From: Clostridia bacterium
Lineage (GTDB): Bacteria; Bacillota; Clostridia; Christensenellales; Aristaeellaceae
NCBI GenBank assembly: GCA_017550745.1
Contig: JAFZOG010000075.1
Coordinates: forward strand, 1-49,192
Length of the DNA: 49,192 nucleotides
Direction of reading: 5' to 3'
Shown: positions 5,240-34,804 of the stretch, piece after piece
How positions within the stretch are numbered: position 1 is the stretch's first letter
How the letters are laid out: each line of letters opens with the position of its first letter
Program-made: the position numbers and the translations under genes
The notes under the pieces: generated by a model
Seen by the model: the letters and a program-made list of their open reading frames with translations, nothing else
The model's database searches: none
Told to the model about the DNA's origin: nothing

Positions 5240-5313
5240 TGGGATTAGTAGGGCTCGAACCTATGACCTCCACGATGTCAACGTGGCGCTCTAACCAACT
5301 GAGCTATAATCCC
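5240..5313 (-). tRNA. tRNA-Val, anticodon GAC
   Basis: The minus strand folds as a 74-base cloverleaf: acceptor GGGATTA/TAATCCC, D arm GCTC-AGTTGGTTA-GAGC, anticodon stem CCACG/CGTGG with loop TTGACAT (anticodon GAC, reading GUC), a 5-base variable loop, and T arm with TTCGAGC. The outermost T-stem pair is A-C. CCA is not encoded. A promoter lies at 5331-5359 and a terminator at 5194-5227, so it is a single-gene transcript. Its 3' end points to the phage remnant, the common arrangement when a prophage has integrated into a tRNA. Confidence 0.95.
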
Positions 5314-32136: not shown

Positions 32137-33138
32137 TTAAAACTGATAAAGCCCGACCTTCTTATACACCTTCCGAAGTGTTTTCTGCGCCAGATACGCC
32201 GCCCGCTCGGAATTGCGCTTGAGCATGGCGCTCAGGCCGTCTTTGTCGGCGATGATAGCGTTGTAGCGCTCCTGGATGGGGGAGAGTTCAGCGATGACGG
32301 CTTCACTGACGGCTTCCTTCAAAGCTCCGTAACCCAGGCCGGACAGGGAAGCGACGGTATCCTCCATGCTTTCCTTTTTCAATACGCTCAGGATGGTGAG
32401 CAGGTTGGAAACGCCGGGCTTGCTGTCCGGGTCGAAGCGGATCTCGCCGTCGCTGTCGGTGACGGCGCGCTTGAGTTTCCGGCGGATATCATCGGGCCTG
32501 TCCAGCACGGCAATGAATGTATCTTCCGGGTCAGACTTGCTCATCTTTTTCGTAGGCTCGGAAAGGCTCATGATTTTCGCCGTTGCTTTGGGAATGTAGG
32601 GTTCGGGAATGGTGAACACGTCCCCGTAGATGCTGTTGAATCGCTGGGCGATATCGCGGCAGATTTCCACGTGCTGCTTCTGGTCGCCGCCCACGGGAAC
32701 CAGGTTGGTCTGGTACAGCAGGATATCGGAGGCCATCAGCACGGGATAATCAAACAGGCCCGCGTTGATGTTGTCCGCGTGCTTGGCGGATTTGTCCTTG
32801 AACTGGGTCATGCGGGACAACTCGCCCATGTAGGTGTAACAGTTCAGGATCCATGCCAGCTCCGCATGGGCAGGCACATGGCTCTGGCAATAGATGATAT
32901 TTTTATCGGGGTCTAAGCCGCAGGCCACGTAGATGGCGGCCAGGCTGGCCGTGCGCTTGCGCAGCTCGGCAGGATTCTGGCGTACCGTCAAGGTGTGCAG
33001 GTCAGCCATGCAGTAAAGGCAGTCTGCGTCGTCAAAGAGCGAAAAATTCCGCAGCGCGCCGATGTAGTTGCCCAGCGTAATATTTCCTGAGGGCTGGATG
33101 CCCGAAAACACGACTTTCTTTTTGTCCTGGTTCTCCAT
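32137..33138 (-). CDS. trpS: Tryptophanyl-tRNA synthetase
   Basis: 333 residues from ATG 33138; an in-frame GTG three codons upstream is possible, but the AAAGGGG site suits the ATG. Class I synthetase: HIGH-like VFSGIQPSGNITLGNYIGAL near the N-terminus, YCMADLHTLTV, the tryptophan-pocket segment YPVLMASDILLYQTNLVPVG, and KMSKS in TKKMSKSDPEDTF. It charges tRNA-Trp. I see no T-box sequence upstream, which many Bacillota trpS genes have. Instead the leader contains a three-unit promoter/hairpin array (33168-33404). Confidence 0.96.
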   Translation of the reverse strand: MENQDKKKVVFSGIQPSGNITLGNYIGALRNFSLFDDADCLYCMADLHTLTVRQNPAELRKRTASLAAIYVACGLDPDKNIIYCQSHVPAHAELAWILNCYTYMGELSRMTQFKDKSAKHADNINAGLFDYPVLMASDILLYQTNLVPVGGDQKQHVEICRDIAQRFNSIYGDVFTIPEPYIPKATAKIMSLSEPTKKMSKSDPEDTFIAVLDRPDDIRRKLKRAVTDSDGEIRFDPDSKPGVSNLLTILSVLKKESMEDTVASLSGLGYGALKEAVSEAVIAELSPIQERYNAIIADKDGLSAMLKRNSERAAYLAQKTLRKVYKKVGLYQF

Positions 33139-33167: not shown

Positions 33168-33404
33168 TCTGATGGTCTTCATCTTTCCCTTGCGGGGGCC
33201 GCCGACACGCGCCTTGGCTTTGCCCGTGGGCCCATCCAGAATTATACCATAACGCTTGCCGCTTTTCCCTCCGGGAAGCGGCAAGACGGCCGACCGCGCT
33301 GCGCGCCGGTCGCCTCGTTATTATACCATGATGGTCGGCGTCTTTCCCTTACGGGAGCCGCCGACACGCGCCACGGCTTCGCCCGTGCGCTCATCCTTAT
33401 TATA
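33168..33404 (-). repeat. Three tandem 79-base units, each an extended -10 box plus two hairpins
   Basis: Reading the minus strand, units run 33404-33326, 33325-33247 and 33246-33168. Each opens with TATAAT preceded by ATGG and, 17 bases further upstream, a -35-like hexamer (TTTACA for unit 1, GGGAAA for units 2 and 3). Unit 1 has hairpins at 33372-33387 (CACGG/CCGTG) and 33334-33365 (GTCGGCG/CGCCGAC with inner TCCC/GGGA). Unit 2 has a 33291-33312 stem (CGACC/GGTCG) and a 33255-33285 stem (CTTGCCGC/GCGGCAAG with TTCCC/GGGAA), with different sequence but the same layout. Unit 3 resembles unit 1 with poorer pairing. The -35 hexamers of units 2 and 3 are part of the preceding unit's second hairpin. 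The 328-base interval holds no convincing gene. Confidence 0.8.
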
Positions 33405-33427
33405 CCATGATCCTTTCGGGCTGTAAA
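33399..33427 (-). promoter_or_regulatory. Best promoter upstream of trpS (unit 1 of the array)
   Basis: TTTACA (33422-33427), 17 bases, TATAAT (33399-33404) with extended -10 TGG. Two further extended -10 boxes follow at 33320-33325 and 33241-33246, each 17 bases after GGGAAA. Confidence 0.75.
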
Positions 33428-33466: not shown

Positions 33467-34804
33467 TCACTCCGCTGCACTGTAGCGCCTGAGGCCCTTG
33501 GGGTAATGGTTTTTCAGGATACCGTCGGCGGCTTTGGCCCAGCCTAACGCCAAGCCGTTCAGCGTGGGGGTGCAGAAACCGCGCAGGGATTCGGGCGCAG
33601 GCAGCGTTTGGCCGGCCTGGTACAGGCGGGCTTCTCCCACAGTCAGCGACGTGCTGTAAACGGACGGCATATACAGCGCCAGGGCGTGATCGGGCACGAA
33701 TATCCTGCCCTTCATTTCGCCCAGGTGCAGCCCGACGCGAAGTGTTTTAACGCCGTCTAAAGGCGGCAAAGCGTTTGGCGGCTGAACAGTTTTTCCGGCA
33801 AAGACCGCCTCAGGAAAAAAAGAAACGGCATACCGGCTTTTCAAAAAAGCTCCGGCTGCGTCGGCTGCGTTTTTATCAACAGAGGACAGGGCGGGCGTTG
33901 AGCGTTCCTTTTTTGCTTTTGCCGGAATCGCTTCTTCCCCGTCCTTTTTCAGCAGCGCCACAAAATGTCCCTCTCCCCGTATGCGATGCGGCCAAAGGCG
34001 CAGTATACCGCCGCATTCCGGCAGTCCGTTCAAAGCAAAAGGAAGAAGCGAAAAACCGGGATGCTCGCACAAAAATGCTTCGATGACCCCTTCGTTTTCT
34101 GTTGGATTGAAGGTGCATGTGCTGTATGCCAGCACACCGCCCGGACGCAGCATCAGCGCGGCGTGGTTCAGGATGTGGCGCTGGCGCCTGGCGCAGCCCG
34201 CCGGAGACGTGGGCGTCCATTCCTTCACTGTTTCGGGATGGCGGCGGAACATGCCTTCCCCGGAGCAGGGCGCGTCCACCAGAATCCTGTCGAAAAAGCC
34301 CGGCCATCTGCCGCTGAGCTCTTCCGGGAGCTGGCTGACAACCACTGCGTTGGGAACGCCCATCCGCTCGATATTCCGGGAGAGGATTTGCGCGCGGCTG
34401 AATACGGGTTCATTGCAAACCAGCAGTCCGTCTCCCTGAAGGAAAGCCGCCAGCTGCGTGCTTTTGCCTCCCGGAGCGGCGCAGAGATCAAGCACTTTTT
34501 CCCCGGGAACGGGATGCAGCGCTGCCGCCGCTGCCATGGCGCTGGGTTCCTGCAAATAGTATGCGCCTGCTTCATGGAGGGGATGCGCTCCCGCTGCGGA
34601 ATCCAAAGAAAGGTAATAGCCCTTTTCAGCCCACGGTACTTTTCCCTCCGCATCCTCCGGAGGCTTGATTCCGTTCCTGACGCGAAGCCCCCGCGCCGGG
34701 GGCTGTTCATAGCTATGCAAAAAATCGGGCAGCATCGGCCCCAAAATCGGCTTCAGCTGCTCGACCCATTCCTGGGGAAAATCAAAATGCGTTTGTCCAC
34801 TCAT
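33467..34804 (-). CDS. rsmF: RsmF/RsmB-type 16S rRNA m5C methyltransferase
   Basis: 445 residues, ATG 34804 with AAAGGGG about 11 bases upstream. The N-terminal RsmB/RsmF domain is followed by the SAM fold: motif I DLCAAPGGKSTQLAAFL near residue 106, motif IV with the catalytic-site VDAPCSGEGMFRRHPE, and motif VI AYSTCTFNPTENEGVIEAFL whose Cys is the usual nucleophile. Residues about 310-445 form the PUA-like RNA-binding tail (KTLRVGLHLGEMKGRIFVPD and SLTVGEARLYQAGQ). It methylates a cytosine in 16S rRNA in the cytoplasm. The gene is 45 bases after an unknown membrane protein gene of the c-di-AMP group and may be co-transcribed. Confidence 0.93.
   Translation of the reverse strand: MSGQTHFDFPQEWVEQLKPILGPMLPDFLHSYEQPPARGLRVRNGIKPPEDAEGKVPWAEKGYYLSLDSAAGAHPLHEAGAYYLQEPSAMAAAAALHPVPGEKVLDLCAAPGGKSTQLAAFLQGDGLLVCNEPVFSRAQILSRNIERMGVPNAVVVSQLPEELSGRWPGFFDRILVDAPCSGEGMFRRHPETVKEWTPTSPAGCARRQRHILNHAALMLRPGGVLAYSTCTFNPTENEGVIEAFLCEHPGFSLLPFALNGLPECGGILRLWPHRIRGEGHFVALLKKDGEEAIPAKAKKERSTPALSSVDKNAADAAGAFLKSRYAVSFFPEAVFAGKTVQPPNALPPLDGVKTLRVGLHLGEMKGRIFVPDHALALYMPSVYSTSLTVGEARLYQAGQTLPAPESLRGFCTPTLNGLALGWAKAADGILKNHYPKGLRRYSAAE

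Follow-up and report, generated by a model that had tools for sequence, protein, structure and literature searches.

A small folded DNA repeat situated next to promoter -10 elements in gut and rumen Clostridia

Overview

A small folded DNA repeat is situated upstream of many genes in gut and rumen Clostridia, as judged from the comparison of genome sequences. Its dispersal, its covarying fold, its position directly 3' of a -10 element, the retention of the native promoter and the presence of a -10 at its exit end are established by the alignments and locus comparisons described below. The best explanation, to which we assign a probability of about 0.8, is that the repeat is a non-autonomous mobile element with a preference for sigma-70 -10 elements, and that it recreates an extended -10 at its exit end. 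The new point is the apparent destination of the repeat, namely existing -10 boxes. In the open-licence literature, no report was found of this repeat, nor of any bacterial mobile repeat that targets a core promoter element and leaves one behind.

The array upstream of trpS

The stretch of DNA that was analysed (the "window", 49,192 nucleotides) contains an array of the repeat before the tryptophanyl-tRNA synthetase gene. From its sequence, the array is composed of the native trpS promoter, followed by two intact units and one decayed unit (Table 1). The units were scored with a covariance model built from related units (R1). The gene downstream was recognised by eye and is presumably trpS rather than tyrS. 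Its upstream neighbour is a gene for an RsmF-type 16S rRNA methyltransferase (33467-34804, minus strand).

Table 1. Features of the trpS array and its surroundings in the window
Feature	Position	Strand	Remarks
Native trpS -35, TTTACA	33422..33427	-	17 bp from box 1; CTTTACA in the 21 relative loci whose promoter is readable
Box 1, ATGGTATAAT, the native trpS extended -10	33399..33408	-	Relatives, with no units, have [AG]TGNTATAAT here (TGGTAAAAT in L214)
AAG, 3 nt, ahead of unit 1 core	33396..33398	-	
Unit 1 core, type A, three-way junction	33330..33395	-	R1 72.4 bits
Box 2, ATGGTATAAT, right-end -10 of unit 1	33320..33329	-	
Unit 2 core, type B, same junction, other stem sequences	33251..33319	-	R1 75.6 bits
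Box 3, ATGGTATAAT, right-end -10 of unit 2	33241..33250	-	
Unit 3, decayed core with broken pairs, right end without box	33171..33236	-	R1 28.2 bits
trpS, tryptophanyl-tRNA synthetase, downstream of the array	32137..33138	-	Pfam tRNA-synt_1b

The three ATGGTATAAT boxes follow each other at spacings of 79 and 79 bases on the minus strand, in agreement with an earlier reading made from the letters of the window alone (the sequence-only reading). The 17-bp spacers given there, with the hexamers TTTACA, GGGAAA and GGGAAA, were also found to be correct. That reading described three tandem units, each of a promoter and two hairpins; to regard them as three equal promoters has to be abandoned because only the first box has a -35. 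A promoter scan of the array returned TTTACA-17-TATAAT at box 1 as its sole match, with 11 of 12 positions agreeing (one match found versus a shuffle mean of 0.2). The GGGAAA hexamer agrees with TTGACA at three of six positions. Furthermore, the third unit is decayed, scoring far below the other two, and has no box at its far end.

Two hairpins had been proposed to follow every box. They are present in all three units, but unit 3 folds little better than shuffled sequence: as DNA it has a z score of -0.74, with 43 of 200 shuffles folding equally well, versus -4.07 for unit 1 and -4.62 for unit 2. Units 1 and 2 differ in sequence and form the same junction, so the second unit does keep its layout with different stems, as had been noted.

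The exact 79-bp spacing would be expected of a local minisatellite, in which only the promoter region of trpS had been duplicated in tandem. This explanation is refuted, and we give it practically no chance, as the same units occur at many unrelated loci of the source genome, units 1 and 2 differ in sequence and there is no unit at trpS in relatives. Copies 98-100% identical to unit 1 are found at several other loci of the source genome.

A search of the whole window against Rfam at the gathering score gave nothing at the array, the T-box included, and only a tRNA at 5240-5313. The absence of a T-box from the trpS array, which had been remarked upon earlier, thus stands for matches at that score. 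The best local match of the array is to 6C, with 24.8 bits (cut-off 47) and an E value of 0.3, and 14 related loci gave no match at the cut-off. Assignment to an Rfam RNA family (T-box, riboswitch or small RNA) is therefore not supported. A distant-mode search of plasmid and phage records with the 271-bp array of the window found no match.

The native promoter of trpS in related genomes

A trpS gene was identified in 28 of the 29 genus genomes, the source genome counted among them. The region upstream of it was compared in 25 relative loci of 24 genomes, L211-L213 being left out. In 21 of these loci CTTTACA is followed by [AG]TGNTATAAT and there is no unit. One of the 21, locus L214, has TGGTAAAAT in place of [AG]TGNTATAAT; loci L194, L201 and L215 have a different sequence at the promoter position, and L209 is a fragment. 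Box 1 had been counted as part of the repeat unit; its presence in 21 of the 25 relative loci identifies it instead as belonging to the native trpS promoter. R1 found units at none of 27 relative trpS loci (L209 excluded), and other copies stand before genes that look unrelated; both results disagree with the suggestion of an unusual trpS leader.

The same distinction between the first and the later boxes is seen in a larger sample. In 135 arrays recognised by the box pattern (L160 and arrays with fewer than 60 bases of left flank having been dropped), TTG is positioned exactly 17 bp before the first box in 32, versus 1-10 arrays for each of the other spacings between 12 and 23 bp. Before later boxes, TTG at 17 bp is found in 6 of 190 cases. 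The GGGAAA hexamers are unlikely to act as -35 elements, because TTG at 17 bp is rare for later boxes. When separated by type, 13 of 33 three-way-junction arrays have TTG at 17 bp, as do 19 of the remaining 102, which still include at least two junction-type arrays missed by the filter (L039 and L059). Judging from these promoters, the first box is native and the later boxes belong to the repeat and are without a -35.

Distribution of the repeat

The sequence-only reading suggested searching the source genome and its relatives for the unit, and such a search finds many dispersed copies, which covary when aligned. BLAST located 22 places with units in the source genome, the window among them. 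A two-box pattern gave 22 matches there, also including the window, versus none for a reversed control pattern. The units in this genome are of several types, which differ in stem sequence and have a common layout.

Within the genus, R1 gave at least 405 matches (E <= 0.001), distributed over 21 of the 29 genomes; the figure is a minimum, as scoring was confined to 150 candidates per genome. In the family, where stricter filters and 25 candidates per genome were used, matches were obtained in 28 of 200 genomes and in 9 of 50 genera; the exact two-box pattern is present in 11 of the 200 genomes. Among named genomes, a pattern of the two-box type matched at least 116 stretches, mostly in records titled Lachnospiraceae, Oscillospiraceae and other Clostridia; these matches include some chance hits in other phyla, and the spread that they indicate is a lower bound. 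Several copies are located at contig ends (L260, L263, L264, L275, L276, L290, L291 and L302). The repeats thus seem to interrupt assembly, so that the true copy numbers are probably higher than those counted.

The genes downstream of different copies look unrelated. According to Pfam they encode a tRNA synthetase and proteins with ACT, PP-loop, HAD hydrolase, MatE and LytTR domains. The dispersed copies favour a possibility named earlier, that of a repeat family carrying portable promoters, the promoter activity of the repeat's boxes being putative.

Filled and empty sites

The clearest comparison of loci with and without the repeat is given by a PP-loop gene, to which Pfam assigns the PP-loop class only and which we call guaA-like. 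R1 finds units at three of 13 loci of this gene (L367-L369). In the nearest empty locus, L370, ATGCGATAAT is followed directly by GAAGCCGCTTC. In the filled locus L368, the order is ATGCGATAAT, core, AAGGGATAAT, core, ATGGTATAAT and then AAAACCGCTTC. The filled loci have kept the native ATGCGATAAT or ATGCAATAAT on the left and carry the repeat's own ATGGTATAAT on the right. In L369 the junction between the two units has been lost. Nine further relatives were inspected: in eight the promoter is GATAAT or AATAAT and holds no unit, and in L378 neither such a promoter nor a unit is present. The comparison demonstrates, at the level of sequence, that units consisting of a core and a -10-like box sit directly 3' of the native -10. 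The filled copies hold two units each, so that no clean single-unit event is seen. There is no target-site duplication at the guaA-like gene, and none was recognised by eye in single copies away from a -10 (class 2, defined below).

Units were found by R1 in two of 21 loci of an ACT-domain gene, the source-genome copy being counted. The corresponding promoter has three units in G000 and two units of other types in G216, and there are none in the other 19 of the 21 loci. This looks like two independent insertions.

For a HAD-hydrolase gene, one of seven loci is filled (G000, which is counted in the set). The promoter reads TATACT in six close relatives; in the filled copy, the left box is TATAAT and the right box is degraded. 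The left box may sometimes be altered, which would count against a strictly untouched native box, unless the difference is a point mutation.

Flanks and orientation of the arrays

The flanks were also analysed in a sample chosen by the core only. It was taken from the best-scoring R1 places and the source-genome loci and consists of 126 arrays with 207 units, a subset of the 405 matches. Of these arrays, 115 have at least 70 bases of left flank and remained after repeated left flanks had been dropped. Hexamers agreeing with TATAAT at five of six positions or better were regarded as TATAAT-like. On the left, such a hexamer ends at gap 0 in 59 arrays and at gap 3 in 14, with at most one array per gap between 8 and 29; on the right, it is found at exactly +4 in 52 of the 115 arrays with right flank. 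These counts are not fully independent, since some orthologous copies are common to related genomes.

Arrays with a -10 within 0-4 bases were designated class 1 and the others class 2. The position 3' of a -10 that is seen at the guaA-like gene is thus found in 75 of the 115 array flanks (class 1) and not in 40, which are away from a -10 and are themselves in either orientation (class 2). In class 1, TTG occurs at a spacer of 17 in 25 of 75 arrays, versus 0-7 at other spacings. A start with a Shine-Dalgarno sequence is found downstream of 53 of 64 testable class-1 arrays, versus 21 of 64 in the mirror. The corresponding figures for class 2 are 15 of 35 and 17 of 35, that is, no orientation preference.

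Fold and covariation of the core

The core is 58-77 nt long, with a median of 69 nt. An alignment of 22 distinct units shows a three-way junction, in which a closing stem, P1, encloses two hairpins, P2 and P3. Of the 431 pair cells in the alignment, 98.8% are standard, and double changes occur in 16 of the 20 pairs. The covariation score was reached by none of 500 shuffles and controls with slid partners were far lower; 20 of the 22 rows had been taken from a list selected for complementarity in P1, a bias towards P1 and not towards P2 or P3. One covariation measure, that of further pair types, is no higher than in shuffled data, with 23 versus a shuffle mean of 24.7 and 457 of 500 shuffles as high. 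The covariation of the stems supports the earlier proposal of selection on the structure itself. The core begins with four variable bases (GATG, AACG, GTTT, GACG and others), while the box stays TATAAT-like.

The kinds of mismatch in the stems give an indication of the molecule on which selection acts. In 173 distinct units found by R1, the rows of which had been fitted to the model, G.T and A.C mismatches number 8 and 9 in P1, 7 and 9 in P2, and 33 and 14 in P3. Selection at the RNA level would favour G.T over A.C, and we therefore infer that P1 and P2 look selected as DNA and P3 perhaps as both DNA and RNA. As RNA, the sense strand is slightly better folded than the antisense strand in 116 of 167 units, with means of -34.5 and -33.6 kcal/mol. 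The excess of G.T in P3 and the better fold of the sense strand fit some selection at the RNA level.

These last properties, together with the covarying stems and the sense orientation of class-1 copies before genes, are what would be seen if the units acted in the 5' leader as structured RNAs, regulating or stabilising the mRNA, and were selected at each gene. We consider this improbable. Most orthologous genes are without units, the genes behind the copies look unrelated, and the class-2 copies have no preferred orientation. In addition, the 5' strand of P1 would precede the transcript start expected from box 1, yet P1 covaries (in rows whose choice favoured P1).

Arrays and related repeat families

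In several class-2 arrays, the linkers between units are alike within a locus and different between loci, so that duplication in place is probably a further way in which arrays grow. Together with the 40 of 115 arrays that are away from a -10, the locus-specific linkers imply that some units do not include the box. Linkers that are not -10 elements and are alike within one locus were noticed in L231, L232, L247, L260, L278 and L279. By eye, several of these arrays end just before a Shine-Dalgarno-like sequence.

Evidence on the relative age of units within class-1 arrays is mixed, a trend in the linkers having no matching trend in the broken pairs. Of 31 such arrays, 17 have a first linker that resembles ATGGTATAAT more closely than their last right box does, 4 show the opposite and 10 are ties. 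Broken stem pairs are fewer in the first unit in 8 arrays and fewer in the last in 12, with 11 ties.

Pattern matches with other cores and the same box fall into sets of 44, 14 and 8 loci when loosely grouped by shared 9-mers, the largest of which may be chained. Since the box was the search key, its being shared is no evidence by itself; a -35 at 17 bp is evidence. In a member of the 44-locus set, the box pairs with the next bases as a perfect hairpin. Similar hairpins between the box and the bases following it, for example GGTATAATATC-GAAA-GATATTATACC, were observed in several box-sharing families. Short repeats with the ATGGTATAAT box and a different core are seen in L073, L077, L085, L170, L171, L185 and others from Lachnospiraceae and Oscillospiraceae. 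A family AACGAGGAAA...CGAG of about 82 bp has the same box (L087, L095, L099, L104, L158, L164 and L167) and occupies more than one locus in Lachnoclostridium sp. An14. Among the matches listed, box-sharing repeats of other core families are present in two cultured organisms, Acetatifactor muris DSM 23669 and Lachnoclostridium sp. An14.

A subfamily GACGAG..CGTC (L311, L315, L319 and L330-L333), six of whose seven copies are from G094, is located in or beside short AGGGATTAGGG-type repeats and not at promoters. Locus L160 is a CRISPR-like array in which ATGATATAAT occurs by chance within the repeat; it is a false positive of the pattern and was left out of the counts.

Candidate movers and template switching

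The Y1 transposase of the genus is not supported as the mover of the repeat, because in the assembled genomes of the genus it does not track the repeat. None of its 13 loci carries a unit. Y1_Tnp has matches in 10 of the 29 genomes, among them G202, G069, G115 and G212, in which R1 finds no unit, and none in the repeat-rich genomes G094 and G030. A mover from beyond the genus, or in DNA missing from the assemblies, is conceivable. There is also no match in G094 and G030 to PF01797, which we take to cover RAYT. GTAG occurs anywhere in the unit in only 12 of 173 distinct units; with GTAG rare and PF01797 absent from these two genomes, membership of the RAYT/REP group is not supported. The repeat also does not have the properties of a MITE derived from a transposon with terminal inverted repeats: the box is a direct repeat, P1 is only 4 bp long, and the left and right boxes at the guaA-like gene differ. 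P1 is no obvious guide sequence, as it varies while the target stays the same.

The repeat might be moved by no dedicated enzyme at all, if any segment lying between two -10 boxes could be copied from one promoter to another by replication slippage or by template switching at the short boxes that they share. The box is indeed the sequence common to both ends, it is carried by several unit families unlike in sequence (for which it was the search key), the locus-specific linkers of class 2 suggest growth by tandem duplication, and the search of genus genomes for a Y1 mobiliser found none. Nevertheless, this explanation appears doubtful. Little sequence is common to the two boxes of the guaA-like gene, GATAAT or AATAAT on the left and TATAAT on the right, class-2 copies occur where there is no box, and the covariation points to a need for the fold itself.

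Proposed mechanism

In the preferred reading, that of a mobile repeat, one strand of the core can form the three-way junction, the commonest form of the repeat ending in the 10-nt extended -10, ATGGTATAAT. The empty sites and flank statistics show that it is located mostly directly 3' of an existing -10 hexamer and in the direction of transcription. As at the guaA-like gene, the native -35 and -10 would remain upstream, with the repeat's -10 taking up the native position relative to the gene. By rebuilding an extended -10 at the exit end, such an insertion would let the host gene keep its promoter box. Arrays would result from further insertions or from tandem duplications. Transcription from the native promoter would now pass through the hairpins, and further transcripts may begin close to the former start site, from the extended -10 downstream. 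Copying, by a putative enzyme, may proceed through a folded single-stranded form of the DNA, as in IS200/IS605, and the -10 may be recognised in its melted state.

A wider and more tentative proposition, in our opinion somewhat less likely than not, is that folded mobile repeats integrate at working sigma-70 -10 elements, perhaps since these are single-stranded in the open complex, and rebuild an extended -10, and that several unrelated repeat lineages in Clostridia have converged on this habit. If the repeat does target a core promoter element and leave one behind, as in the preferred reading, its insertion would directly duplicate promoter boxes, move them apart and supply many genes with structured leaders. 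The further question of whether single-strand DNA integrates at the -10 region melted in an active promoter could then be put to the test.

Comparison with known systems

The repeat is not claimed as a member of IS200/IS605 or of REP/RAYT, and the resemblance to each is partial. Passages of one account describe IS200/IS605 elements as inserting 3' of a short target, with no target duplication and no terminal inverted repeats (PMC7290912). The palindrome-associated transposable elements (PATEs) of this group, as far as that description extends, resemble the repeat in being short and in having hairpins, and resemble its copies at the guaA-like gene and in most array flanks (75 of 115, but not the other 40) in lying 3' of a fixed short target; neither group has terminal inverted repeats, and the guaA-like gene shows no target duplication. 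However, their target is a tetra- or pentanucleotide, whereas that of the repeat is a -10 hexamer. Moreover, the hairpins of the repeat close into a three-way junction, and Y1 does not track it.

REPs are presented, in passages of another source (PMC8266576), as high-copy palindromic repeats with a proposed mobilisation in trans. On these points, REP/BIME sequences with RAYT (TnpA-REP) are like the repeat, with its many palindromic copies. Unlike them, the repeat prefers promoters in the sense orientation, and GTAG is rare in its units.

Correia, RUP and BOX elements are small dispersed repeats able to carry parts of promoters, and have terminal inverted repeats and a short target duplication. 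They differ from the repeat in this duplication, none being seen here. Putative mobile promoters, or cases of promoter reuse, are short promoter-carrying sequences found before unrelated genes. In contrast to these, the repeat appears to leave the native promoter in place and to add a -10 at its exit end.
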